Source: Bacteroidales bacterium (GTDB lineage Bacteria; Bacteroidota; Bacteroidia; Bacteroidales; Tenuifilaceae). From it: a stretch of DNA of 11,631 nucleotides. The position numbers and the translations under genes were made by a program. The notes under the pieces were generated by a model that searched no databases, was not told the origin of the DNA, and was given only the letters and a program-made list of their open reading frames with translations. Numbering within the stretch: the first letter of the stretch is position 1; each line of letters starts with the position of its first letter. Shown one piece after another: positions 1-11,631 of this stretch. The DNA lies in contig WBUV01000057.1 in the NCBI GenBank assembly GCA_008933525.1, positions 1 to 11,631 on the forward strand. Reading direction: 5' to 3'.

Positions 1-453
1 AAGTTTTACAATTATTTTATTCCCTTCAACCTTAACTACCTCAATGGTCGACTGCTGGTCAATCATCTCGCCAAGCGCTGTTACCTCAACAATATTATCG
101 TTGATTACAGCTTTACCCATAGGTGCCAAACGACTAACGGTAATGCCAACATCCCCAGCCTTGATAATATGCTCGTAATCCTCAGTAGCCCTGGAATCGA
201 TATTAGTGCTCAAAGTCGCCCATCGCCATGTTTTAGCCCTGAGCGACAGAGCAATTGTTGCCACAGAAGCAACCGCAGTAGATAACAAAATTATATGCCC
301 AGTAGTAGCACCATACTGGCTATAGCCTAAATATACTCCAAAAACAATAAGCACAAACCCGGCAATACCAGCAACAGTAATACCCGGAATAATCAGAAAC
401 TCTGCAACAAGAAAGATGAGTCCAATTACAATAAGAACAATGATTAGGGTCAT
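1..453 (-). CDS. NfeD family membrane protein, C-terminal end cut by window edge
   Basis: An open frame runs from the ATG at 453 to the left edge with no stop, giving 151 residues. Three hydrophobic segments (about residues 2-17, 24-44 and 52-68) are followed from about residue 88 by a soluble part with the NfeD OB-fold pattern: GDVGITVSRLAP, then GKAVIND, then an alternating beta pattern ending IEVVKVEGNKIIVKL. Short NfeD proteins of this kind are about 150-160 residues, so only a few residues should be missing. NfeD proteins are membrane partners of SPFH/flotillin-type proteins (FloA), and a floA-like gene often follows; it would lie beyond the left edge. The start is 9 bp after the clpS stop, so the two are probably co-transcribed. 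No clear ribosome-binding site is seen. Family assignment is firm; the partner gene is inference. Confidence 0.88.
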   Translation of the reverse strand, partial: MTLIIVLIVIGLIFLVAEFLIIPGITVAGIAGFVLIVFGVYLGYSQYGATTGHIILLSTAVASVATIALSLRAKTWRWATLSTNIDSRATEDYEHIIKAGDVGITVSRLAPMGKAVINDNIVEVTALGEMIDQQSTIEVVKVEGNKIIVKL

Positions 454-462
454 TTCTGAGGA

Positions 463-744
463 TTAATTTAGATTGATTGTAGCACTTAACCCTCTTCGGT
501 TTAACTCAACCATCATGCTCTCCAGCTCATCGCGCTCACCTCGGCGAACATCACACTTTCCCTTAAAGTGAGTAATAATTGCGCATTGCTCGGCTTGATT
601 TGGTTCATGTCTGCACACATCAACAAGGGTTTCAATAACGAATTCAAATGTGTTCACCTCGTCATTATGCAGAAACAACGTGTAGTTTTCGTTTGTCTCC
701 ATATTCACCTCCTCTAAACTGAAAGTTTGTTCACGATGACTCAT
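463..744 (-). CDS. clpS: ClpS adaptor of the ClpAP/ClpCP protease (N-end rule)
   Basis: ClpS binds proteins with N-degron residues and hands them to the Clp AAA+ ATPase for degradation in the cytosol. The family core is plain: the LFLHNDEVNTFEFVIETL segment with the HND/NTF substrate-pocket motif, then VDVCRHEPNQAEQC, then HFKGKCDVRRG and the final RRGLSATI. This is the Bacteroidota subtype, with the HxKGKC segment. The start is uncertain. The ATG at 744 gives about 20 residues ahead of the first strand, which fits the usual N-terminal extension, but has no ribosome-binding site. The internal ATG at 702 follows a strong AGGAGG five bases upstream and would give a 79-residue protein with almost no extension; that AGGAGG also encodes Glu-Glu-Val and may be chance. 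A TTG at 753 is less likely. It lies 30 bp after the long SPOR gene and 9 bp before nfeD. Confidence 0.93.
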   Translation of the reverse strand: MSHREQTFSLEEVNMETNENYTLFLHNDEVNTFEFVIETLVDVCRHEPNQAEQCAIITHFKGKCDVRRGERDELESMMVELNRRGLSATINLN

Positions 745-774
745 AGGTAACAATTTATTAAGATGCTAATATAG

Positions 775-3579
775 CTATTTTTTATCAAGTTCAATAGTTA
801 TAACCACAGCGTTTACAATTCCACTTGCTACTAAGTTATCTTTCACTCGTTGAGCCTCATCCAAAGTGGAGTAATTCCCAACAGAGAATTCCTTTTGTCC
901 AAGGCCATTATCGGTTCTAGAAATTTCCTTCCCGGATGCTATGGTTCTTATGGTTTTGGCTACATCGTCGGGTAAATCATTGTCGTAAACACCCACTTGT
1001 ATTTTGTAGATTTTCCCATTATCAACCTCTGCGGGTTTTGCAGCCTGAACAGCAGTACCCTCCAACGATTGCGCTCTTTGTGGCGTAATCTTTTTACCGT
1101 TATACCACGCAATGATAAATGCATCCTTAAAGCCTTTCGACTTAACAACACCCAATGCTTTTTCGGCGCTAGAGTATGTAGTTAAATTACCAATAAAATA
1201 CTTGGTTAATGTTCCTGCTTTCTCGCCAAAAACAGGCACCATTCCTTTGAAGAACTGAGGTTCGCGAAGCGTGCCGAATGCTCCAATTTGAATTCGATAT
1301 ACTACGCCATCGGGCAATGGAGAGTCTATTGGTATTGGATTCTCGGCATTATAAACAGGCTTATCTACTATCCCAAAATCCGAAGGAATTTCCTGTTTTA
1401 TTGCAATGGTTTGAACAGGCTTAACATCATCCTGCTTTTCAATTTTTGGTCCCTCGGGAACAAATTGAACTTCTTCCAATTTTTTTACAACTTCCTTAAC
1501 GGGCTCTGTCTGCTGCGATACTCCAAAAATGTTTGTTTCCAACTTGATTATTCGGCTGGTTAACTGCTGCTCGAATAATTTTAAGCCCCATATCTTAGAG
1601 AAAGCCAAGTCCAACTTCAACAATGCCAACTCGCGCATTAGCGATGCCTCAAAGGTGCTTTCCACCTTTCCTTCATCGCCCAAATTATTCATAATTGCTG
1701 AAGCAGTTCTTACATGAGCCTTTGAAGCATTGATATCGTTCCGAATAGTTTCGTCCTTTGTTCCGCTTTTTACAAGTGCAACGTGAAGACAATCGTTGTA
1801 AATAGTATATTTTTTCTCAAAATACTTCTCCATTAAACTGCTATAACTGCTCATAGCAGAAAGCATTATTTTGCTCTCTTTATCGCAATTGGCAGGAACT
1901 GTATCCGAAGAATTATTTGAGCAAGTTCTATACTTATCCTTAGCAGCAAAGGCATTTTCTCTAGTTTTTACAAGTTGAGGGTATATTTGCTCAACCAGAG
2001 CAAGCCTATTAATCTCATCGTCCTGAAAAACAGTGGTGGCAAACTGCGCCTGATAAATATATTCAGGATTATCGACTGCAAAAGTTGCATCGGCCTTACC
2101 TTGGGGTTTACGCTTACCTGTGAGGTACTCCTGCTCAATTTGGCTGGCGCGAACAAACATCATATCGGCCTCCTTTTGCGCAGCAAGCATATCGTCCTCC
2201 ACTTTTGTCACTTTTTTCTCAAGTTTTATCCGCTCCTCCGCTGTATCGATATAATCGAAACCTTGACGCAACTTCTCAAGTCGAATTATCAAGGAATCGG
2301 TTAGCATTTGTGCAGCAAAACCTTTGGCAATTACTCGGGCATACTCAGGGTCATTCTCAACCGAGCTGAATGTTGCAGGCTTTTTTTTCTTCAAATCATC
2401 AACTTTCTTTTCCTCAACATTTTTCTTCACCTCAACCCTCTTCTGCTCTACAACAAGACTTGCCCCTTCCATATTTAACCTCGCCAACGAAACTAACTCC
2501 TTGTTCGATTTTGCAGAACGACGAATTGGGTTCTCCTCATTCTTCATCAACACCAGCTGAACTGTATCGGGCATAAAGTTGCGGTTGGTGGCAAAGCAAA
2601 CCAAACTATCAGCATCGCCTACCACGTAAAGAAAATCGTCGAAGGGTGAATTGTATGGGAATCCCAAATTTTCGGCAGTGCTCCACAATCGGGTTTTAGG
2701 ATTATAAACGGATTTGTAAATATCGTACCCGCCCATCCCGTAATGACCTTTTGACGAGAAGTAAAGCGTAACCCCATCGGGAGCCATGTATGGAAAATCG
2801 TCATCGAAAAAAGAGTTCACCACATCGCCAATAACCTCGGGCTTGCTCCAATAACCATCGTCCTGAAACTTGATTCGGAAAATATCCTTTCCGAACGAGG
2901 TGGAGTTGCCATAGCTGGAATAGTAAACATAATCGCCAACCTGGGGGTTCTTAGGATAAAACATCACCGATTGGTGATTCATTTTTTTATCGGTAGGTGT
3001 TAAAAGATTCTCAGGAATACTGGTAAAACTGCCGCTGCTTGGAGCAACAGAATAGTAGTTGTAAAAATCTTTCGAGGACAAACTTTTTGTATCGAGCACA
3101 GTTGGAGTGAAAATATATCGAGTTAAAAAACTCCCATTCTCGCAAAGCGTTACTAAAGGCTCAACATCTTTTAACTTAATATCGCGCGAACCACCGCTAA
3201 TTGTAAATCGGCGGTAATAATCAATTGCCTCGTTAAACTGATAGTTCTGCCTCAACGCCTCGGCTAAGAAAAAGTAAACCATATTGGGAACATTGGCGGT
3301 TGATGCCTTTGTGAGATACTCAATGGCCTTATCAAGATTGCGAGTTCCCATTAAATAACAAATTCCTAGTGGATACTGAATATTGGGGTCGCGAGGATAC
3401 TCTTTAATCAACTCATCATAAATACTGAGTGCCTGCGTAAAATGAAGTTTATTCAACAGAGAATCTGCCTTAACACGTTGCAGATTCGATTGCGAGGCAA
3501 CTGCATCAACCTCCTGCGAGTTAGCCAACGCCGCAATCCCAAGTAATACTATTAGAAGAAATATTTTTTTATGATTCAT
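775..3579 (-). CDS. Secreted TPR / PD40 beta-propeller / tandem SPOR protein
   Basis: A 934-residue exported protein. Residues 1-22 are a signal peptide with probable cleavage near ALANSQ. Residues about 33-130 are TPR-like helices (KADSLLNKLHFTQALSIYDE, then NLDKAIEYLTKAS, then NEAIDYYRRF). Residues about 205-345 hold PD40/WD40-like propeller blades, the clearest being YMAPDGVTLYFSSKGHYGMGGYDIY at 264-288. Residues about 380-680 are charged and helical, probably coiled coil. Residues 757-826 (YRIQIGAF start) and 856-928 (YKIQVGVY start) are two SPOR-type domains, a fold known to bind denuded peptidoglycan glycan. The TPR+PD40 order resembles PorE-type proteins linked to gliding and type IX secretion, but those end in an OmpA-like peptidoglycan-binding domain; here SPOR repeats take that place. 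A periplasmic, cell-wall-anchored role is inferred. It heads a probable operon with clpS and nfeD. The exact function is not known to me. Confidence 0.9.
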   Translation of the reverse strand: MNHKKIFLLIVLLGIAALANSQEVDAVASQSNLQRVKADSLLNKLHFTQALSIYDELIKEYPRDPNIQYPLGICYLMGTRNLDKAIEYLTKASTANVPNMVYFFLAEALRQNYQFNEAIDYYRRFTISGGSRDIKLKDVEPLVTLCENGSFLTRYIFTPTVLDTKSLSSKDFYNYYSVAPSSGSFTSIPENLLTPTDKKMNHQSVMFYPKNPQVGDYVYYSSYGNSTSFGKDIFRIKFQDDGYWSKPEVIGDVVNSFFDDDFPYMAPDGVTLYFSSKGHYGMGGYDIYKSVYNPKTRLWSTAENLGFPYNSPFDDFLYVVGDADSLVCFATNRNFMPDTVQLVLMKNEENPIRRSAKSNKELVSLARLNMEGASLVVEQKRVEVKKNVEEKKVDDLKKKKPATFSSVENDPEYARVIAKGFAAQMLTDSLIIRLEKLRQGFDYIDTAEERIKLEKKVTKVEDDMLAAQKEADMMFVRASQIEQEYLTGKRKPQGKADATFAVDNPEYIYQAQFATTVFQDDEINRLALVEQIYPQLVKTRENAFAAKDKYRTCSNNSSDTVPANCDKESKIMLSAMSSYSSLMEKYFEKKYTIYNDCLHVALVKSGTKDETIRNDINASKAHVRTASAIMNNLGDEGKVESTFEASLMRELALLKLDLAFSKIWGLKLFEQQLTSRIIKLETNIFGVSQQTEPVKEVVKKLEEVQFVPEGPKIEKQDDVKPVQTIAIKQEIPSDFGIVDKPVYNAENPIPIDSPLPDGVVYRIQIGAFGTLREPQFFKGMVPVFGEKAGTLTKYFIGNLTTYSSAEKALGVVKSKGFKDAFIIAWYNGKKITPQRAQSLEGTAVQAAKPAEVDNGKIYKIQVGVYDNDLPDDVAKTIRTIASGKEISRTDNGLGQKEFSVGNYSTLDEAQRVKDNLVASGIVNAVVITIELDKK

Positions 3580-3611
3580 AGCAAAATCGGTGCTTGTTAT
3601 GCAAAATCATT

Positions 3612-3643
3612 CAAAAATAGTTAGAAATAATGGAGAATACAAA
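3612..3643 (-). promoter_or_regulatory. Bacteroidota-type promoter candidate for the SPOR gene
   Basis: Read on the minus strand, TTTG at 3643-3640 is followed after 20 bases by TATTTTTG at 3619-3612. This matches the known Bacteroidota promoter form of a -33 TTTG box and a -7 TAnnTTTG box, at about the right spacing. Transcription would begin around 3605, giving a leader of about 25 bases before the ATG at 3579. The match is by eye only. Confidence 0.5.
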
Positions 3644-3666
3644 ACGTTAACAGCAATTGACTTAAA

Positions 3667-3692
3667 ACAAATAAATTATGCCCAACCCTACT
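3667..3692 (-). promoter_or_regulatory. Shared upstream element, copy C (facing the SPOR gene)
   Basis: On the minus strand AGTAGGGT (3692-3685) is followed after exactly 14 bases by TTGT (3670-3667). The same pair with the same spacing occurs at 3759-3784 and 6296-6321, and scattered positions between the two boxes also agree. The element ends 87 bp upstream of the SPOR gene start, beyond its promoter candidate, so it could be a regulator site or an alternative promoter. Its function is unknown. Confidence 0.45.
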
Positions 3693-3758
3693 AAACCATT
3701 TATTCTAAATAATTCCTAAAACAAATATAGTTTCCAATATCAAGATATTTAAAACTCA

Positions 3759-3784
3759 AGTAGGGTGTTTTAGAATTAAATTGT
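3759..3784 (+). promoter_or_regulatory. Shared upstream element, copy A (facing the T9SS-sorted gene)
   Basis: AGTAGGGT (3759-3766) is followed after 14 bases by TTGT (3781-3784), then ATT. This copy is very close to the copy before the pqqD-like gene: over about 40 bases most positions agree, including the TTTTA stretch after the first box and TTGTATT followed by ATAA. It lies 195 bp upstream of the start at 3979, so a long leader or a distal regulator site is implied. Confidence 0.5.
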
Positions 3785-3906
3785 ATTCATAACAAACACT
3801 AGCAAAAGAACTAAAAATCAGAAGTATGGCACAAGTCATCAATTCACAAATACGCTTAACCGTTAATTTTCAATAAAATAGATTCAGGAGAAAGGTTATT
3901 TGTAAA

Positions 3907-3950
3907 AGTGGAGGAGTCCCACTAAAAAAAACAGGGTAAGACTCAACCCT
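3907..3950 (+). other. Two small hairpins with complementary loops in the probable leader of the 3979 gene
   Basis: The first hairpin has stem AGTGG (3907-3911) with CCACT (3919-3923) and a 7-base loop; the second has stem AGGGT (3933-3937) with ACCCT (3946-3950) and an 8-base loop. The first loop contains GAGTC (3914-3918) and the second contains its complement GACTC (3940-3944), so a loop-loop contact is possible. Each stem is only 5 bp, so chance is a serious alternative. The pair sits 28-72 bases before the start codon. Confidence 0.22.
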
Positions 3951-3978
3951 ATAAGAGCCATAACATAACACTTGCACA

Positions 3979-4491
3979 ATGAAAAAAACACTTTTTTTAG
4001 ACAGAAAAAAGATGCTGATGGTGCTGTTATTGCCTCTTTTTCTTGCACCATTTGGCATTATGGCACAGTCCATTAAGCGACAGTGCATCTCAAGCTATAA
4101 TGTATCAAACGCCTCCAGCAATTTTATCGTATTGCAAACCGTTGGGCAACCTTATAGCACTACACTATCTGACAGAAATGTTCTTCAGGGGTTTCAGCAA
4201 CCAATCTCATTTAAAGCCTCAAAGAAAAATGATGCTTTAGTTAATTGTTTAGAAATAAAGGCATTCCCTAACCCTGCAAAACAATGGGTAACTATTCAAA
4301 GTTCCACATCAGCTGAAATCTCTAAAATTCAGGTAATGGACATAACCGGAAGAAGCATTTTTCTTGACAACAACATTACTCTGGAAGACTACAAACTTGA
4401 TTGCTCTAAATGGTCGAACGGGATTTACATTATCACCGTAACCGATTTTCAAAAACAAAAAAGTTCATTGAAATTAATAATCAGTAAATAG
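3979..4491 (+). CDS. Short exported protein with type IX secretion C-terminal sorting domain
   Basis: A 170-residue protein. Residues 1-30 are a signal peptide (hydrophobic core MLMVLLLPLFLAPF, cleavage near IMAQ). Residues about 35-78 have the pattern common in small Bacteroidota surface proteins: SSYNVSNASSNF, then a TVGQPYSTTL segment and VLQGFQQP. Residues about 90-170 are a type A T9SS sorting domain: EIKAFPNPAKQWVTI, then IQVMDITGRSIF, then WSNGIYIITV, ending SSLKLIISK. Such domains direct proteins across the outer membrane through the Por system, usually for attachment to A-LPS. Almost nothing lies between signal and sorting domain, so the mature protein would be only about 60 residues of unknown role. 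An internal ATG at residue 12 is a possible alternative start. The next gene begins 7 bp downstream, indicating an operon. Confidence 0.88.
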   Translation: MKKTLFLDRKKMLMVLLLPLFLAPFGIMAQSIKRQCISSYNVSNASSNFIVLQTVGQPYSTTLSDRNVLQGFQQPISFKASKKNDALVNCLEIKAFPNPAKQWVTIQSSTSAEISKIQVMDITGRSIFLDNNITLEDYKLDCSKWSNGIYIITVTDFQKQKSSLKLIISK

Positions 4492-4498
4492 ACCAACT

Positions 4499-5128
4499 AT
4501 GAAAAGAATAGGAATATTTTGTTTGCTGCTCAGCCTAATGCTCTATGCAAACACAGGAAATGCTCAGTCTAGTTTATCCATAGAAGCATCTCAACTTTAC
4601 TCCACATTCAGTTTCACCGACAGCCAAGGCACATCACTTAACAGCGATTATTCTGGCATTTTTGTTGGCTCATATGGTTTAGCTTATAGATACAACCTCA
4701 ACAATGGCATAACATTAAGAACTGGCATTGGAATGCGAAAGGCTGGAGCAACTATGGTTTACGACAATATGAATTACTCATGGGATTTACAGTATGCCGA
4801 GGTAAAATTGGGAGGTGGTTATATTCTAAAAAATGAAAGAATCAGTCCTTACATTACTTTTTCGGGATACTATGCTTACATGCTCAGAGGCTACCAAACA
4901 ATTAATAACGAAGATATTAACCTAATGGATGCTGGTACAATAAACGAAACTGACTTCGGCATAACAATTACACCGGGGTTCCAATTCACATTCTCCGATA
5001 AAATATCATCGTTTTTAGAATTCAACTACAGAATGGGACTTCAGAACTTGGAAAAGGACGAAGGCCAAGAATCGAAGAATACCGCATACGGATTAACTTT
5101 AGGTCTAACTATCTCATTCAGAAAGTAA
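4499..5128 (+). CDS. Small outer-membrane beta-barrel protein
   Basis: A 209-residue protein with a signal peptide (residues 1-22, ending TGNA before QSS). The rest is a run of alternating aromatic and polar strands typical of an 8-stranded barrel: GSYGLAYRYNLNNGITLRTGIGMR, LQYAEVKLGGGYIL, ISPYITFSGYYAY, FGITITPGFQFTF, SSFLEFNYRMGL and the last strand AYGLTLGLTISFRK. The length and strand pattern fit the outer membrane protein beta-barrel families common in Bacteroidota. No ligand or enzymatic function can be read. It starts 7 bp after the T9SS-sorted gene and ends 26 bp before the next, so the three products are probably made together and may act together at the cell surface. Confidence 0.8.
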   Translation: MKRIGIFCLLLSLMLYANTGNAQSSLSIEASQLYSTFSFTDSQGTSLNSDYSGIFVGSYGLAYRYNLNNGITLRTGIGMRKAGATMVYDNMNYSWDLQYAEVKLGGGYILKNERISPYITFSGYYAYMLRGYQTINNEDINLMDAGTINETDFGITITPGFQFTFSDKISSFLEFNYRMGLQNLEKDEGQESKNTAYGLTLGLTISFRK

Positions 5129-5154
5129 TGTTAAACTATTAAAGGAATTGTAAA

Positions 5155-6144
5155 ATGAAAAAGATATACTTAATTGGGATTATTATTCTAGCTTGCTTAA
5201 TTACCCCACAGCTGTATTCTCAAAACATTGGCGATTTAAAAGGAATATACTATCAAGCAGTTGCAATTGATGAGTATGGTCAAGAAATTGTAGGCACAGA
5301 TATCGAGGGAAAGCCTCTGTACGAGAAAACCATTTCTGTTCGATTTAGCATTACAAAGGGACTTAATGGCCCAATACAATTTGAAGAAACACATGAAACC
5401 ACTACGGATAAGTACGGTTTATTCTCACTAACCATTGGCCAAGGTACACAAACAGGAAATGGAACATATACCAAATTACTTGATATTCCTTGGATAGATG
5501 CAGATCAGTTTCTAAAAGTTGAAATATCATCAAAAAACGATGGGAACTATAGATTGGTAAGCAATCATCAATTCATGACTGTTCCCTACTCATTTTATAC
5601 CGATGATATTGCAGACAACGCCATAACATCAGCAAAAATACTAAACAGCACAATTGTGAATGAGGACATTGCCGATAATACTATTAATTTAAAAACAAAG
5701 GTAACCGACTCGCTTAGCGTAACAAATGGAGGGACTGGCAAAAATTTCTTACAGGATGGAAGTATACTGGTTGGTAGTGGGAGCGAACCTGTAAAACCAA
5801 AAAAACTAGCATCAACAGATGCTACCGTAATAATTACCCAAACAGCCGACACCATTAACCTACAAGCTGTATCAGCCCCTGTTCTTGTTACTAGCGATCC
5901 AGCAGGAACCTTTAATATACCTAATATTGCCAATGGTGCAACTTATGTTTCGAACGCCATAAACTATGCAGGGGTAGATTTTGGAGATATCATTATTGCA
6001 TCTATCGATCAAAACTTACAAGGGTGTATGCTAACTGCATATGTATCTCAACAAAACGTTATCAGAGTGGCAATCTTCAATGGCACTGGAGGAACGGTTA
6101 ACTTTGGTTTAGATGTCAGCCTAAGAGTATTTGTTATAAAATAA
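5155..6144 (+). CDS. Exported surface protein with tail-fibre-like middle region
   Basis: A 329-residue protein with a signal peptide (residues 1-22, ending LYS before QN). Residues about 28-150 form a beta-rich domain seen in many Bacteroidota surface proteins: GIYYQAVAIDEYGQEI, ISVRFSITKG, FEETHETTTDKYGLFSLTIGQG, FLKVEIS and then MTVPYSFYTDDIADNAI. Residues about 150-215 are DDIADNAITSAKI and EDIADNTINLKTK followed by NGGTGKNFLQDGSILVG, a style of repeat well known from phage tail-fibre and trimeric fibre proteins. Residues about 235-329 are a beta-rich C-terminal domain with no T9SS sorting signature that I can see. A fibrous surface adhesin or receptor-binding role is inferred. It is the last gene of the run and is followed by a terminator. 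Confidence 0.72.
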   Translation: MKKIYLIGIIILACLITPQLYSQNIGDLKGIYYQAVAIDEYGQEIVGTDIEGKPLYEKTISVRFSITKGLNGPIQFEETHETTTDKYGLFSLTIGQGTQTGNGTYTKLLDIPWIDADQFLKVEISSKNDGNYRLVSNHQFMTVPYSFYTDDIADNAITSAKILNSTIVNEDIADNTINLKTKVTDSLSVTNGGTGKNFLQDGSILVGSGSEPVKPKKLASTDATVIITQTADTINLQAVSAPVLVTSDPAGTFNIPNIANGATYVSNAINYAGVDFGDIIIASIDQNLQGCMLTAYVSQQNVIRVAIFNGTGGTVNFGLDVSLRVFVIK

Positions 6145-6162
6145 CCAATGATTCTACAATCA

Positions 6163-6200
6163 AAACATAAGGGTTAATTTAAAACTTAACCCTTATGTTT
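6163..6200 (+). terminator. 15-bp-stem hairpin ending the 3979-6144 operon
   Basis: AAACATAAGGGTTAA (6163-6177) is the perfect reverse complement of 6186-6200, with an 8-base loop at 6178-6185. It begins 18 bp after the stop of the tail-fibre-like gene. The stem carries its own A-run on the left and T-run on the right, so it could stop transcription in both directions. The next gene is over 180 bp away. Confidence 0.8.
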
Positions 6201-6295
6201 CAAATCTAATATTTAATATCTCCTTCTTTTATCTCCAAGTTAAAATACACCAAAACAACTGACTATCAAGAAATAAAAGAATTAAAAGCATACAA

Positions 6296-6321
6296 AGTAG
6301 GGTATTTTAAAGTTGACTTGT
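6296..6321 (+). promoter_or_regulatory. Shared upstream element, copy B (facing the pqqD-like gene)
   Basis: AGTAGGGT (6296-6303), 14 bases, then TTGT (6318-6321) and ATT. It ends 63 bp upstream of the pqqD-like start and overlaps the left box of the promoter candidate at 6313-6341, a position where a bound regulator could affect transcription of the whole ligase/decarboxylase run. Confidence 0.5.
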
Positions 6322-6341
6322 ATTAATAATAAAAGTATATT
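6313..6341 (+). promoter_or_regulatory. Promoter candidate of the pqqD-like operon
   Basis: TTGACT (6313-6318) and TATATT (6336-6341) are separated by 17 bases, a close match to a general sigma-70 promoter. Against the Bacteroidota form (TTTG / TAnnTTTG) the second box, TATATTGT, is a weaker match. Transcription would start near 6348, leaving a leader of about 37 bases. This is the only promoter-like sequence I see between the terminator and the gene. Confidence 0.4.
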
Positions 6342-6384
6342 GTATATCGGCCTAACATAAATACTAAACCAAAATAATATAGCA

Positions 6385-6627
6385 ATGAAAATCAAAGAAA
6401 ATATAGCAATCAGTGAAACGGGGTTTGTGTTCAACCCAACCACTGGCGACTCCTTTACACTAAACGAGACTGGACGTAAAGTTATTGCGCTTATTAATGA
6501 AGGCAAAACTATTGAACAAACCGCAAAAGTTCTAAAGGAAACCTTCGATGTGGACGACACCACCTTGGAGCGCTACCTGTTCGATTTTGTTTACGATCTG
6601 CGGATAAACAAACTTTTGGAGGAGTAA
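6385..6627 (+). CDS. Stand-alone PqqD-family protein (peptide-binding chaperone/RRE fold)
   Basis: An 80-residue protein that matches the PqqD family along its full length: an N-terminal beta hairpin (GFVFNPTTGDSFTLNETGRKVIALI, residues about 13-37), then a winged-helix part (GKTIEQTAKVLKETFDVDDTTLERYLFDFVYDLRINKLL). PqqD domains bind the leader of a precursor peptide and present it to a modifying enzyme; in PQQ biosynthesis the partner is a radical SAM enzyme. Here the next genes are an ATP-grasp ligase and a PLP decarboxylase, and no radical SAM gene or obvious precursor peptide is in the window. It is the first gene of the run. Its final codons and stop lie inside a 34-bp tandem duplication shared with the next gene. 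What it binds is not known. Confidence 0.85.
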   Translation: MKIKENIAISETGFVFNPTTGDSFTLNETGRKVIALINEGKTIEQTAKVLKETFDVDDTTLERYLFDFVYDLRINKLLEE

Positions 6628-6686
6628 CCAATGTCACGAACAAAAATAACAGGAGGAGTAACCAATGTCACGAACAAAAATAACAG
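6618..6686 (+). repeat. 34-bp tandem duplication of the ligase start region
   Basis: The 34 bases at 6618-6651 are repeated exactly at 6652-6685, and base 6686 also matches. Each unit holds a GGAGG ribosome-binding site, the sequence of the pqqD-like gene end with its TAA, an ATG eight bases after GGAGG, and the first seven codons of the ligase. Since 34 is not a multiple of three, the first ATG (6631) is out of frame with the ligase and the second (6665) opens the true gene. Removing either unit would leave a normal pqqD-stop to ligase-start junction, so this looks like a recent, protein-neutral duplication. Confidence 0.93.
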
Positions 6687-6717
6687 TTGCTGTTACTGGA
6701 CTCAACAACATCGATAG
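6631..6717 (+). other. Decoy 28-codon frame opened by the duplicated start codon
   Basis: The first of the duplicated start codons, with its own GGAGG at 6618-6622, opens a 28-codon frame that begins MSRTKITGG, ends in TAG at 6715-6717 and overlaps the first 53 bases of the ligase gene in another frame. It has a Gly-Gly and a Cys-Cys, which superficially recalls a cleaved leader peptide, but the simplest reading is a by-product of the duplication. Ribosomes starting here would not make the ligase, so it may lower ligase output. Confidence 0.3.
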
Positions 6718-7711
6718 TCCTGGGCCAGGAATTCCTGTAATTAGGGGAATAAAAGAATCCGAGGAGTTCAATGCGCGGATTATTGGCTTAGCATACGAGC
6801 ACTTGGAGCCGGGAATATATATGAGCGAACTGGTTGATAAAACCTATATGATTCCTTACCCCTCGAAAGGGAAAGAGGCTCTTTACGACCGATTGATGGA
6901 AATCCACAAAAAAGAGAACATCGATGTTATTATACCAAACTTCGACGCAGAACTTTTCTCGTTCATCAAACTGGAAAATCAACTTAATAAAGTTGGAATT
7001 AAAACATTCCTTCCAACCCTGGAGCAATTCGAGGAACGTCACAAATCAAACCTACCTGCATACGGAAAAAAATACGGCGTGGATATTCCACAGGGAACAG
7101 AGGTATTCAGCATTGCCGACTTGAACAATGCGCTAAAATCGATGGAGTACCCAGTAATGGTAAAGGGCAAATACTATGATGCCTACAAGGCATACTCAGA
7201 GGAACAAGCCATTGCATACTTCCATAAAATGTCCGCAAAATGGGGTTTACCTGTAATCCTTCAGGAATTTATTGATGGTACCGAGGTTAACGTAATTGCA
7301 CTGGGCGATGGAAAAGGGAATCTTACCGCCGCTGTTCCAATGCGCAAGCAGTATATCACCGACAAAGGTAAAGCTTGGGGAGGTATTACTATTGAAGACC
7401 AGAGTCTGCTCGATCTGGCGCACAAAATTGTATCGCAAAGCAAATGGCGCGGAGGAATGGAGCTAGAGCTAATCCGCTCGGCCAACGGTAAACTCTACAT
7501 CTTAGAAATCAACCCTAGAATTCCCGCATGGGTTTACCTTGCAGTTGGCGCAGGACAAAACATCCCGGAGGCATTAATAAAATTGGCACTTGGGAATGAT
7601 GTAAAACCTTACACCCGTTACGATGTGGGTAAAATGTTTATCCGCTACTCGTACGATATGATTGTGGATATAGATAGATTTTCAACTCTAGCAACATCAG
7701 GGGAACTGTAG
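6665..7711 (+). CDS. ATP-grasp carboxylate-amine ligase (CarB/PylC-like)
   Basis: A 348-residue ATP-grasp enzyme. These enzymes activate a carboxylate as an acyl phosphate and join it to an amine or similar nucleophile. The N-terminal part (residues 5-120) is a CarB/PylC-like pre-ATP-grasp domain: VAVTGLNNIDSPGPG and then IDVIIPNFDAEL. The ATP-grasp core follows: YPVMVKGKYYDA (162-173, ATP-binding Lys167), ILQEFIDGTEVNV (198-210), GGMELELI (263-270) and LEINPRIPAW (280-289), with the metal-binding Glu and Asn of the E-x-N motif present (Glu281, Asn283). The active site looks intact. The substrate cannot be read. The upstream PqqD-like protein suggests that a peptide or carrier-bound amino acid is involved. 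The chosen start is the second of two duplicated ATGs, the only one in frame; both have a good GGAGG. Confidence 0.88.
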   Translation: MSRTKITVAVTGLNNIDSPGPGIPVIRGIKESEEFNARIIGLAYEHLEPGIYMSELVDKTYMIPYPSKGKEALYDRLMEIHKKENIDVIIPNFDAELFSFIKLENQLNKVGIKTFLPTLEQFEERHKSNLPAYGKKYGVDIPQGTEVFSIADLNNALKSMEYPVMVKGKYYDAYKAYSEEQAIAYFHKMSAKWGLPVILQEFIDGTEVNVIALGDGKGNLTAAVPMRKQYITDKGKAWGGITIEDQSLLDLAHKIVSQSKWRGGMELELIRSANGKLYILEINPRIPAWVYLAVGAGQNIPEALIKLALGNDVKPYTRYDVGKMFIRYSYDMIVDIDRFSTLATSGEL

Positions 7712-7767
7712 AGTGGTTCTAGTTATATCAAAGTAAAGAAATTCAAACAACTCAAAATTGAACTACA

Positions 7768-9114
7768 ATGGAAAAGCAAATATTTGAACGCCCAACAATA
7801 ACCAAACTAAATCCTGGAGTACCATCGAAACACGGAGTAGGAACAGTTATTGCGCCTATGCCAATGGTTGATGGCGTTAAGGTTGACGAACTGCTCGATA
7901 AATTTGGCTCGCCACTATACATAATCTCCGAATCGACAATCCGCAGGAATATGGACGAGATTAAACGAGCATTCACGGTACGTTACCCTAAGGTACAAAT
8001 GGCCTGGAGCTACAAAACCAACTACCTCGATGCAGTTTGCCGAATATTCCTCCAGGAAGGTTCGTGGGCCGAGGTTGTTTCGGGTTTTGAGTATGATAAA
8101 GCCATTAGAAACAATGTAAAAGGCGAACACATCCTATTTAACGGCCCTGGCAAATCGGCTGCGGAACTCGAAAAAGCCGCAAGGGATGGTGCGTATATCC
8201 ATATCGATCATTTTGATGAGCTTTTCCTTCTTGCGGGCATCTGTCAGAACAAAAACATCGAGGCAAGAGTGGCTATAAGGGTTAATATGGATGTGGGCAT
8301 TTACCCAAAGTGGGATAGGTTTGGCTTTAACTATGAGAATGGCGAAGCATGGGATGCTATTAACCGAATTATGGCAAATCCAAAACTGAAACTAATGGGA
8401 TTGCACACCCATATTGGCACATACATTATGACTGCTGAGGCTTACCGTATTGCAGCAACAAAACTTGCGGAGTTAGCCTATAATATTGGCAATAAATTCA
8501 ACCATCACATTTCGTATATCGATATGGGCGGAGGTTTTGCATCGCGCAACACGCTTCGCGGAGCTTACCTTTCGGCCGACGACACAACACCTTCGTTCGA
8601 GGAGTATGCCGAAGTTATAACATCGGCAATTATTAACTCGCAGATTAAGCCTGACAAACTCCCAACCATAATTCTAGAAACTGGACGTGCACTAATTGAC
8701 GATGCTGGCTACATTGCAGGAACAGTAATCGCCAACAAGCGTCTATCCGATGGACGCAGGGCAACAATTATTGATGTTGGGGTTAACTTCCTATTCACAG
8801 CATTCTGGTACGACCACAAAATTCACCCAACCATTCAGCACTCTGGTGCTGTGGAGGAAACAACCATTTACGGCCCACTCTGTATGAATATAGATGTAAT
8901 TAGACCATCGCTTATGTTCCCACCTATGAAACAAGGCGACAGGCTCCTAATTACCCGAACAGGAGCATACAACAACACCCAGTGGATGCAGTTTATTGCG
9001 ACCCGTCCAAATATAGTTCTGATAGACAAAGACCGAAATGCTCATATAATCCGAAAAGCCGAAAGCGTTGAAGATGTTGCTAATAATGAAGTCATCCCAA
9101 AACATCTGGAATAG
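7768..9114 (+). CDS. Fold-III PLP amino-acid decarboxylase (LysA/Orn-Dap-Arg family 2)
   Basis: A 448-residue enzyme of the alanine-racemase-fold decarboxylase family. The PLP lysine is Lys83 in AWSYKTNYL. Other family motifs are GLHTHIGT (211-218), the phosphate-binding DMGGGF (252-257), ETGR (304-307, replacing EPGR) and GAYNNTQWMQF near the end. In DAP decarboxylase the motif CESxD, and in ornithine decarboxylase CDxxD, supplies the catalytic Cys and an acidic residue that reads the distal end of the substrate. Here it is CMNID (372-376): Cys372 and Asp376 are kept but the second residue is Met. A substrate other than DAP, lysine or ornithine is therefore likely (inference). It is thus probably not the housekeeping lysA. 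It sits 56 bp after the ligase. BtrK, which decarboxylates a carrier-bound glutamate after BtrJ ligates it, is a precedent for this gene pair. Confidence 0.86.
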   Translation: MEKQIFERPTITKLNPGVPSKHGVGTVIAPMPMVDGVKVDELLDKFGSPLYIISESTIRRNMDEIKRAFTVRYPKVQMAWSYKTNYLDAVCRIFLQEGSWAEVVSGFEYDKAIRNNVKGEHILFNGPGKSAAELEKAARDGAYIHIDHFDELFLLAGICQNKNIEARVAIRVNMDVGIYPKWDRFGFNYENGEAWDAINRIMANPKLKLMGLHTHIGTYIMTAEAYRIAATKLAELAYNIGNKFNHHISYIDMGGGFASRNTLRGAYLSADDTTPSFEEYAEVITSAIINSQIKPDKLPTIILETGRALIDDAGYIAGTVIANKRLSDGRRATIIDVGVNFLFTAFWYDHKIHPTIQHSGAVEETTIYGPLCMNIDVIRPSLMFPPMKQGDRLLITRTGAYNNTQWMQFIATRPNIVLIDKDRNAHIIRKAESVEDVANNEVIPKHLE

Positions 9115-9125
9115 ACAAATAACTT

Positions 9126-9153
9126 ATTGACTCATTGACTCATTGACTCATTG
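9126..9153 (+). repeat. Octamer tandem repeat (ATTGACTC, 3.5 copies)
   Basis: ATTGACTC is repeated three times exactly and followed by ATTG, all within the 70-bp gap before the transporter/peptidase gene; a related ATTGACTA lies just after (9166-9173). Copy number of such repeats can change by replication slippage. It ends 31 bp before the start codon, so a change would alter leader length rather than reading frame. Confidence 0.9.
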
Positions 9154-9184
9154 TCACATTATCTAATTGACTAATTAACCTGCA

Positions 9185-11359
9185 ATGAACAAAAACGCAC
9201 TATCGGAATTTTCAAAAGGTTTGGCACGAAGCTATTCCCAAGTTTTCTTTTCCGAGAACTACTGGTTTGCGATACCCTTGATTGTAGTTTCGTTTATCGA
9301 TTTTTCGGCTGGTTTTTCAGGATTGCTTGCAGCACTTTCGGCAAATATTGCCGCAAAACTGCTCCACTTCGACGAATCGACCACACAAAGAGGGCTTTAC
9401 GGTTTCAACGCATTGCTTGTTGGCTTGGGATTAGGTTACTTCTACCAGCTAACATTGGCCATTATGCTTATTTCAATATTTGCAGGATTCTTCACTTTTC
9501 TTTTGACCATTGTGTTTCAGGGAGTGTTAGGCAAATACTACCTTCCATACTTATCGATACCATTTGTTTTGAGCGTTTGGCTTGTTTTAAGCGCTGGCTG
9601 GCAAGTTTCAGATGCCGAATCGAATCCAGCAGGACTTTATATTATCAACAAGATATTTGGAATTGGCGGGTTAAAGTTGGTTAGCATTCATGAGTGGTGG
9701 ATTAACAACGTTAAATGGAACTACCTAAACAGCTATTTCACATCGTTAGGGGCGCTATTCTTCCAACTCAACATAGTATCGGGAGTGCTTGTTGCTGTTG
9801 CATTGCTATTCTACTCACGCATAGCGTTTATGCTATCTATAGTTGGTTATAGCGTTGCTTACTTTGCCTATGGGGCCATTGGAATGGATTTAAACTTACT
9901 GGGCTACAGCTACATTGGATTCAACTTTATACTTGGCGCAATTGCCATTGGAGGGTACTACTACATTCCTTCGAAACAATCGTTCTTTTGGGCTGTAGCA
10001 TTCACACCAGTTATTGCCTTGGTAACAGCAGGGTTATTCGGAATATTTAAACAATCCGGATTACCAATTCTTTCGTTGCCATTCAATATTGTGCTGCTGA
10101 TGCTTATCTACTCGTTCCGATTCAGAGTAAAGCAATCCGACTTTAAGGAGGTACTTGTTCAGGAGGGAACACCCGAAAAGAATCTTTACTCGTTCCAATC
10201 GTTCACGAACCGATTCCCCAACTATGGCTGGACTGAGATAAAATTACCATTCTTCGGCGAATGGTTTGTTAGCCAAGGACACAATGGAGATTACACGCAT
10301 CAGGGAGAATGGTCGGCAGCTTGGGATTTTATCATTACCGACAAAAATCAAAATCAACATAAAAACAACGGAGATATTGTCACGGATTACTACTGCTACG
10401 GACAAAATGTTATTGCCCCTGCCGATGGAGTGGTTACCACTGTTGAGGATGGAGTTGACGACAACATTATTGGCGAAGTTAATACAGCTAAAAACTGGGG
10501 AAACACAGTTATAATAAAGCATACCGAGGGGTTATACACAAAACTATCGCATTTGAAAAGTGGCTCAATCACCGTTAAGGAGGGCGATAATGTTCGCTAC
10601 GGAAACGTGATTGGTAAAGTTGGCAATTCGGGTCGTTCCCCCTACCCTCACCTTCACTTTCAGATACAAACAACACCATACATCGGTTCAAAAACACTGA
10701 AATACCCTTTGTTTGCCTACATAGAGAATGGGAAACACATAAAAACTTTTGATTACCCTGAAAAGGATAGTGTAGTAGGTTCAATATCGGCTGAACCGCT
10801 TCTTAAATCGAAGTTGAACTTTAAACCAGGAACTAAGTTAAAATGGTCTATCACCCAAAACAAAACAAAAAGAACTGAGGAATGGGAAATCCACAACACG
10901 CCATACAACAAACTTTACATCCACTGTAAAGCCACAAAATCAACCGCATACTTTATAAACGATGGCGTTAACTTCTACTTCACACATTTCGAGGGTGACA
11001 AAAACTCGCTGCTCTACAACTTCTACCTTGCAGCATTCCGTTTACCGCTTGTAATTATTGAAGGAAACACAACCACCGACTACTTACCTGCCAACAAAAC
11101 ATTCAATGGGTGGAGACTATTCCTACACGATTTTGTTGCGCCATTCTACATCTACCTAAAAACAAAAATTGAGGTCAAAGCAACGCGTATTGGCTCTGAG
11201 TTTGACACTAAAGGCTTTGAATACAACTCAATTATAACCGGATACTCATTCCAAAACCTTGTTTTCATTAAAAACTTCAAACTAACCATAAACGCTAATA
11301 GCACTATAAGTTTAGTTGATACAATCTCAGAAACGGAGGCAATATGCGAACCATACTAG
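9185..11359 (+). CDS. Urea-transporter-type channel fused to M23 metallopeptidase
   Basis: A 724-residue two-part protein. Residues about 15-310 are a UT-family (urea transporter) membrane domain with many hydrophobic segments and the two GFN repeats of the family: RGLYGFNALLVGLGLGYF (69-86) and YIGFNFILGAIAIGGYY (243-259). Residues about 350-515 are an M23 (lysostaphin/LytM-type) zinc endopeptidase: THQGEWSAAWDF (371-382), NVIAPADGVVTTVE, WGNTVIIKH (438-446), LSHL (454-457), IGKVGNSGRS and PHLHFQI (488-494). Likely metal and catalytic residues are His372, Asp381, His456, His489 and His491. Residues 516-724 are an extra region, partly beta-rich, that I do not recognise. M23 enzymes usually cut peptidoglycan cross-bridges; whether the target here is the wall or a product of the cluster is open. 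No urease gene is visible. The last 16 bases overlap the next gene, so translation is probably coupled. Confidence 0.87.
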   Translation: MNKNALSEFSKGLARSYSQVFFSENYWFAIPLIVVSFIDFSAGFSGLLAALSANIAAKLLHFDESTTQRGLYGFNALLVGLGLGYFYQLTLAIMLISIFAGFFTFLLTIVFQGVLGKYYLPYLSIPFVLSVWLVLSAGWQVSDAESNPAGLYIINKIFGIGGLKLVSIHEWWINNVKWNYLNSYFTSLGALFFQLNIVSGVLVAVALLFYSRIAFMLSIVGYSVAYFAYGAIGMDLNLLGYSYIGFNFILGAIAIGGYYYIPSKQSFFWAVAFTPVIALVTAGLFGIFKQSGLPILSLPFNIVLLMLIYSFRFRVKQSDFKEVLVQEGTPEKNLYSFQSFTNRFPNYGWTEIKLPFFGEWFVSQGHNGDYTHQGEWSAAWDFIITDKNQNQHKNNGDIVTDYYCYGQNVIAPADGVVTTVEDGVDDNIIGEVNTAKNWGNTVIIKHTEGLYTKLSHLKSGSITVKEGDNVRYGNVIGKVGNSGRSPYPHLHFQIQTTPYIGSKTLKYPLFAYIENGKHIKTFDYPEKDSVVGSISAEPLLKSKLNFKPGTKLKWSITQNKTKRTEEWEIHNTPYNKLYIHCKATKSTAYFINDGVNFYFTHFEGDKNSLLYNFYLAAFRLPLVIIEGNTTTDYLPANKTFNGWRLFLHDFVAPFYIYLKTKIEVKATRIGSEFDTKGFEYNSIITGYSFQNLVFIKNFKLTINANSTISLVDTISETEAICEPY

Positions 11360-11631
11360 TTTTAATATTTATATCGATATCGATTTTAGGCTATAGTCAA
11401 ACCGATTTTATTAGCCTCGATAAGCAAAACTTCGACTACTATCTAAAAGGCGATTACAAAAACCTAAAGCAAACTGCCAAAAAACAGTTTGAACTAGGAA
11501 TGGACTATTACTACCTTAGAATGCGACTGGGAATATTGGCATATAACAATCAACGATATGCCAGCGCTTACAAGCATTTTCAAAAGGCCATTACTTTTTT
11601 CAACTCCGACACTATTAGCAGAGAGTACATC
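11344..11631 (+). CDS. Exported TPR-repeat protein, N-terminal part only
   Basis: An open frame of 96 codons runs off the right edge. It starts at an ATG with GGAGG four bases upstream, inside the end of the transporter/peptidase gene (16-bp overlap in another frame). Residues 1-18 look like a signal peptide (MRTILVLIFISISILGYS before Q). Residues about 57-87 form a TPR-like helix pair: MDYYYLRMRLGILAYNN then QRYASAYKHFQKAI. The overlap and ribosome-binding site indicate it belongs to the same operon. The C-terminal part is not in the window, so whether it carries an outer-membrane domain cannot be told. Confidence 0.75.
   Translation, partial: MRTILVLIFISISILGYSQTDFISLDKQNFDYYLKGDYKNLKQTAKKQFELGMDYYYLRMRLGILAYNNQRYASAYKHFQKAITFFNSDTISREYI

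Follow-up and report, generated by a model that had tools for sequence, protein, structure and literature searches.

On computational evidence, we consider it moderately probable that a gene cassette in a Bacteroidales draft genome encodes an enzyme system that is guided by a RiPP recognition element (RRE; RiPP, ribosomally synthesized and post-translationally modified peptide) and has no separate precursor peptide: the N-terminal tail of the cassette's own decarboxylase would be bound and brought to a ligase, an acylated or tethered amino acid would be decarboxylated, and the product passed on. The window, meaning the whole stretch of DNA analyzed, comprises bases 1-11631 (11,631 nucleotides) of contig C187 in a draft genome of 3.39 Mb (543 contigs, 85% complete). 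The five cassette genes that it holds lie on one strand (+), and their positions, shared direction and families, as given in an earlier note on this DNA, were borne out by open reading frames (ORFs) and Pfam. They encode a PqqD-like protein of 80 amino acids (aa), classed as a discrete, RRE-type peptide binder (PqqD hereafter; 6385..6627; Pfam PF05402); LIG, a CPSase-like/PylC-like ATP-grasp ligase of 348 aa (6665..7711); DEC, a fold III pyridoxal phosphate-dependent decarboxylase of 448 aa (7768..9114; Pfam Orn_Arg_deC_N, 103.7 bits); UT/M23, a 724-aa fusion of a urea-transporter (UT)-type channel (Pfam residues 13-309) and an M23 hydrolase domain (405-496) (9185..11359); and the start of TPR1, a TPR protein interrupted by the window end (11344..11631), whose TPR matches in Pfam were below cut-off.

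The argument is carried by the tail of DEC. About 33 residues precede its LysA-like fold, with conservation concentrated in block A (residues 3-13; 7774..7806, +), which has the leader-like pattern K-x-x-[FY]-E-R-P-x-I-x-K, and block B (residues 17-23; 7816..7836, +), which reads G-x-x-x-K-[FYH]-G and includes Lys21 (7828-7830); ten less conserved positions link block B to the fold. Residues were counted in 115 alignment rows, the window and its copy L001 being left out, with the motif aromatic (window F6) as position 0. This position was F in 60 rows and Y in 55, and P stood at +3 in 115/115. The remainder of block A was nearly as constant (K at -3 in 109 rows, E at +1 in 114, R/K at +2 in 112, I/V/L at +5 in 115 and K/R at +7 in 109), as was block B (G at +11 in 111, K at +15, which is Lys21, in 115, F/Y/H at +16 in 110 and G at +17 in 114). 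All 35 near matches to DEC align from residue 1-5, and the alignments of non-cassette relatives begin at residue 28 or later among the matches listed, so the tail goes with the cassette. The core of the tail, [FY]xxPx[ILV], looks like the motif that PqqD-type RREs recognize in leaders. PMC12710340 gives a YxxP ligand motif for lasso peptides and a W/Y/LxxP/L/I motif for groups with FusE, McjB, PqqD and StsC, with the peptide forming a strand on beta3; an excerpt of PMC10368454 names a conserved leader motif YxxPxL, and in an excerpt of PMC5067487 the peptide bound by PadeB1 was mapped along alpha3 and beta3, with nanomolar binding.

The PqqD-like protein, which the earlier note had described as a carrier, is probably an RRE adaptor that binds a peptide, most likely the DEC tail, a feature that the note does not mention. 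It scored 38.9 bits against the PqqD family in Pfam (PF05402; cut-off 23.4), and the lasso RRE TbiB1 matched its residues 14-79 (E 5e-5). The top-ranked match of a structure-database search, chain CAP REPEAT, repeatedly covered only ~28 residues. In RiPP clusters, discrete RREs attach to the leader of a precursor and draw in the enzymes that modify it (PMC7470986). A LysW-like amino-acid carrier was considered and is not favored, the window sequence having no cysteine and the C-terminus being variable.

Structure prediction with AlphaFold2 was carried out on one locus, L022, at which the PqqD, LIG and DEC genes share a frame; when TAA is translated as serine, the continuous DNA yields PqqD, LIG and the DEC tail as one chain (59 alignment rows). 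With PqqD in the chain, the mean predicted local distance difference test score (pLDDT) was 85.7 and the predicted template modeling score (pTM) 0.71; the tail block at 451-460 had a mean pLDDT of 88, residues 453-454 and 460-463 were predicted as strands, and the linker at 439-450 and residues 466-477 were below 50. The control was the same chain without PqqD (36 alignment rows), the same 27 tail rows being present in both alignments. Here the mean pLDDT was 80.1 and the pTM 0.78, pLDDT was below 50 across 351-391, and the two blocks holding tail residues scored 34 and 30 with no strand. Block B had low pLDDT (<50) in both models. The contrast between 88 with PqqD and 34 or 30 without it suggests, for one locus and one control, that tail ordering depends on PqqD. 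The earlier note had proposed structure prediction of the PqqD-like protein with both enzymes; for PqqD, LIG and the DEC tail at this locus, it showed the tail ordered only with PqqD. Overall, PqqD very probably binds the DEC tail.

Linkage of the genes is beyond doubt. When genome contigs were scanned with DEC, 382 relatives came up and the best 80 were retained; the scan used six patterns, the DEC tail itself being one. To these were added 35 loci from 34 genomes with a near LIG (a separate search; these 34 genomes were found without the patterns), for 115 loci in the linkage count. L001, the window copy, and L149, which has no DEC, were removed from the count and L002 was never included; TPR1 matches of <900 bases and matches >9 kb from DEC were also removed. 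Profile building excluded, by length or X, 3/78 LIG, 3/72 UT/M23 and 2/61 TPR1 sequences. PqqD, LIG, DEC and UT/M23 stood together on one strand in fixed order at 81 of the 83 fully testable loci, so the linkage is not due to chance. Among sufficiently long loci, and always on the DEC strand, PqqD was present in 105/106, LIG in 111/112, UT/M23 in 98/102, TPR1 in 71/98 and a sixth gene, TPR2, in 80/86. The conservation of the neighborhood and the co-occurrence of the PqqD-like protein with the ligase, on which the earlier note had made its idea of a single pathway depend, are thus both upheld, and its count of five genes was too low: the cassette runs past the window, through a full-length TPR1 and then the sixth, TPR gene. 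All six genes were found at 59 of the 83 loci, all but TPR1 (by model) at 19 and the first four at 3; the remainder were one locus with PqqD-LIG-DEC and one with DEC alone. Along the six genes the median intergenic gaps were -4, 21, 16, -13 and -13 bases, and the widest 1908, 1659, 1937, 105 and 103 bases. By their record titles, the loci retrieved with DEC come from Bacteroidales, Cyclobacteriaceae, Flavobacteriales, Rhodothermaceae, Balneolales, Chlorobiota and Ignavibacteria; culturable strains with the cassette include Prolixibacter bellariivorans (L069) and Rhodonellum psychrophilum (L020).

Co-occurrence was assessed in the window's own genome and 391 further Bacteroidota genomes (392 in all). 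Near relatives of LIG were present in 34/391 (E <=1.4e-91; next match 7.9e-25), and the same 34 genomes held near relatives of DEC (E <=2.2e-135; next match 2.1e-45) and of UT/M23 (E <=1.1e-89; in one as two adjacent genes). One further genome had the M23 part only. Because gene order is conserved and DEC, LIG and UT/M23 are shared by the same 34 genomes, a single pathway, as first proposed, is strongly supported. Distant LIG relatives were found on plasmids in 4 records (<=28.1% identical), with unrelated neighbors in the one examined, and a distant LIG in genome G354 (L149; 26% identical) had no other cassette gene within 13.9 kb.

Alignments showed the catalytic motifs to be intact, in agreement with the earlier note. 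In DEC, K83 and C372, which we take to be functional residues, were present in >95% of 117 rows. By sequence, the closest PDB relative of DEC is the N-citrylornithine decarboxylase FslC (7kh2; 193 bits), and BtrK (7ru7/2j66) is matched with 98 bits for 7ru7. DEC fell below the NCBIfam cut-offs for both LysA (TIGR01048; 223.6 bits, cut-off 297.9) and FslC (NF041039; 225.4 bits, cut-off 500). The possibility that it is the housekeeping LysA was rejected, given the sub-cut-off score and a second, tail-less relative in at least 11/34 cassette genomes; the window's draft genome has, besides DEC, one other match only (26% identical, in a 647-aa frame).

The mechanism we propose starts with PqqD, a discrete RRE, which is predicted to take the leader-like DEC tail as an added beta-strand; this capture would place DEC beside the ATP-grasp ligase. 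LIG would form an amide bond on the tail itself or at a neighboring site, the likeliest acceptor being Lys21, 15 residues past the motif aromatic, and loading of Lys21 by LIG is put forward tentatively, at clearly less than even likelihood. DEC would, by homology with its characterized relatives, act on an amino acid that is side-chain-acylated or tethered and strip its alpha-carboxylate, and the product would go to the UT/M23 inner-membrane protein and then to a TPR/outer-membrane partner. A more specific version, which we regard as rather doubtful, makes DEC both enzyme and substrate carrier: LIG would load an amino acid on Lys21 via its side-chain carboxylate, DEC would decarboxylate the tethered substrate in its own or a partner's active site, and a cytoplasmic M23 domain would cleave the isopeptide and feed the UT channel. 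If true, RiPP recognition logic would drive a catalytic swinging arm rather than peptide production.

Several points weigh against the RRE-guided reading. The model represents one locus and a covalent read-through chain joining PqqD, LIG and the tail, and because its readout was pLDDT and secondary structure only, the docking partner is deduced by difference. The pTM was lower with PqqD (0.71) than without it (0.78), which makes the modeled position of PqqD relative to LIG unreliable, and LIG filled the structure-match list, with no RRE chain in the best 50 matches. The DEC tail was itself among the patterns that retrieved the best 80 loci. In a few genomes (L059, L065, L076 and L079) the cassette genes are unlinked, with genes missing near DEC. 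It counts in favor of the reading that these genomes nevertheless have UT/M23 on a separate contig (4/4) and LIG in the genome (4/4). In the L065 genome, where DEC stands alone, it sits on contig C249, LIG on C79 and UT/M23 on C151; PqqD overlaps LIG, and DEC retains its tail. Against the reading, the tail might also be a scaffold only, with no covalent step. In that vein, PqqD could simply join DEC and LIG through the tail into a metabolon in which a free intermediate is channeled and nothing is attached, a possibility that we think unlikely but take seriously. It would accommodate the tail docking in the model and the gene linkage, and the nearest decarboxylases by sequence include both FslC, whose acylated amino-acid substrate is free, and BtrK, whose substrate is tethered; it leaves unexplained why Lys21 is identical in 115/115 rows within a stretch of pLDDT <50 in both models.

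The role of discrete RREs as binders of precursor leaders (PMC7470986) would also suit an ordinary RiPP cluster, in which PqqD binds a short precursor, whether its gene is close by or distant, and the DEC tail is a decoy or structural; this we judge very improbable. The strict tail motif was sought near the start of ATG-initiated ORFs of at least 20 aa in 116 oriented loci (1.52 Mb), matches <=200 bases from the DEC start on the DEC strand being counted as DEC, and outside DEC it occurred in only 3 scattered ORFs. No separate precursor emerged among motif-bearing ORFs of at least 20 aa or recurrent families of at least 50 aa, and the conserved short ORF that the earlier note had suggested looking for was thus not found as a recurring, free-standing precursor with the strict motif. 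The tail sequence is single-copy in the window's draft genome, and beyond the six genes no ORF family of at least 50 aa was present in more than 23/82 clustered loci, the scanned example of the top family being an AraC regulator. Also very improbable is that tail likeness and docking are both artefactual, PqqD being otherwise employed (e.g. in regulation) while the enzymes produce, FslC-style, a metallophore or another small molecule. The nearest PDB relative of DEC is indeed a siderophore enzyme, and an AraC regulator is upstream in 20/89 testable loci, the one scanned having a sub-cut-off HMA match; against this, the motif is fixed in 115/115 rows, tail ordering in the models appears to depend on PqqD, and the regulator is absent from 69/89 loci. 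An RRE that captures the tail of its partner enzyme is the reading we retain.

The last steps of the proposed pathway concern the envelope. The channel part of UT/M23 belongs to the UT fold family (Pfam UT, 180.2 bits; cut-off 25), scored below cut-off against the NCBIfam equivalog urea_trans_yut (108.5 bits; cut-off 274.6) and aligned along dvUT (98 bits); the position of the dvUT pore glutamate, which we take to be E187, is alanine in the window. The other part belongs to the M23 family (69.3 bits; cut-off 28.7) and has the motifs TH...AwDF and PHlH, whose H, D and H positions, presumably the zinc ligands, were kept in >95% of 105 rows. UT proteins are known to have both ends inside. The fusion has a basic N-terminus, a basic stretch directly after the last hydrophobic segment and an inter-half linker more acidic than basic; because this charge pattern fits the UT topology, the M23 domain probably faces the cytoplasm, and the final step of the earlier note, export or cleavage, becomes doubtful as far as the wall is concerned. 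Plasmid records held close M23 relatives in Haloarchaea and Thermus, three of which (39-45% identical in the M23 part) were examined by eye: hydrophobic segments are followed by a basic region next to the membrane and a 'PE' motif, and then by LPFxGxW and M23. It is established that Archaea have no murein, and this M23 subfamily therefore need not cut cell wall. At one locus (L118:7793-10047) UT and M23 are separate, overlapping genes, so the fusion can be split; at another (L151) a haloarchaeal membrane M23 relative lies ~1 kb before nitrile hydratase genes.

TPR1 measured 410-479 aa in 59 relatives (median 444) and comprises a TPR segment, with sub-cut-off TPR matches only in Pfam, and, judged by eye from the sequence, a probable outer-membrane barrel. 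At L003, whose DEC is 97% identical, it has 421 aa (L003:11567-12832) and is followed by a 203-aa TPR-repeat protein (Pfam TPR_2, 1.2e-17); the sixth gene product is a TPR protein of ~207 aa in relatives. The 19/83 loci without TPR1 by model include L125, L143 and L144, which represent distant clades. At these three, where TPR1 was not found, a probable outer-membrane protein of 283-286 aa lies near UT/M23; one of the three had a sub-cut-off porin match (E 5e-4) and the other two no Pfam match.

The earlier note had also placed the genes behind one promoter candidate and a terminator. The candidate, TTGACT-17-TATATT at 6313-6341, is weak because the window holds 36 such matches, near the shuffled mean of 31.1 (sd 5.9). 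The terminator is probably a 15-bp hairpin (6163..6200, +; RNAfold -18.0 kcal/mol) that precedes the cassette; it looks like a terminator at the end of the upstream gene, and is not among the 13 terminator-like sites of a window-wide scan. A 34-base tandem duplication at 6618-6686 has copied the ribosome-binding site and start of LIG, the first ATG being out of frame; in the close relative L003 the PqqD-LIG gap is merely 3 bases. The gap between DEC and UT/M23 contains three head-to-tail copies of the 8-base unit ATTGACTC (9126-9149). Upstream of the cassette, 3979-4491 encode a small protein whose C-terminal domain (Por_Secre_tail) is of the type IX secretion kind. In relatives, the AraC-type regulator lies upstream of PqqD where present (e.g. 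L015:3807-4403), and a second family of ~212 aa (10 loci) is mostly upstream of the cassette too. At L059:2255-4480 LIG is split into two frames, with other genes between LIG and DEC. Rfam gave no structured RNA match in the window, and a defense system was rejected as an identity for the cassette, PADLOC giving no match to the four complete cassette proteins tested.

RREs are used to find RiPP clusters, and the bound peptide is assumed to be the precursor. The evidence here points to a metabolic-enzyme tail as the partner of an RRE in ~9% of sampled Bacteroidota species (34/391). If this is true, an RRE gene that lacks a precursor is not necessarily an orphan, leader recognition serves a further purpose, and an envelope-linked pathway that is widespread becomes testable. 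The parts are known families; the novel element is their combination, with an RRE that has an enzyme tail as its ligand, neither of which was found in the literature covered, open-licence PMC papers, and excerpts of PMC10352776 and PMC4431377 held nothing on the cassette.

Among known systems, the lasso B1 proteins (PadeB1, TbiB1 and FusE) and PqqD are of the same small family as the cassette protein, and their ligands have a motif of the same type, [YF]xxPx[LI]; the cassette differs in that the binder is predicted to hold a decarboxylase's N-terminus instead of a precursor, and the leader peptidase B2 and Asn-synthetase-like cyclase C of lasso clusters were not among the recurrent genes of 82 clustered loci. 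BtrJ/BtrK of butirosin, which we take to be an ATP-grasp ligase and a decarboxylase acting on carrier-bound glutamate, share with the cassette a ligase and a fold III decarboxylase. As the precedent named in the earlier note they are fair for the chemistry, given the BtrK match (98 bits for 7ru7), and less so otherwise: the cassette has an RRE and a tailed decarboxylase, DEC is nearer FslC (193 vs 98 bits), and no acyl-carrier protein family is among the recurrent cassette genes. FslC, the N-citrylornithine decarboxylase of rhizoferrin, shares the GPxCM and GAYN motifs with DEC (193 bits in PDB, 225 in NCBIfam), whereas DEC falls under the curated cut-off of 500 bits and the alignment to 7kh2 begins at DEC residue 37, leaving the tail unaligned. 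In the UT/M23 protein each domain is like its counterpart, dvUT on one side and the membrane M23 proteins of Haloarchaea and Thermus on the other, and the cassette differs by the fusion of both. Borosins likewise hold an enzyme and a recognized peptide in one polypeptide; they modify their own C-terminal peptide, whereas in the cassette the tail is N-terminal, a separate RRE is predicted to bind it, and the candidate modifier is a further protein, the ligase (PMC7878506 for borosins).

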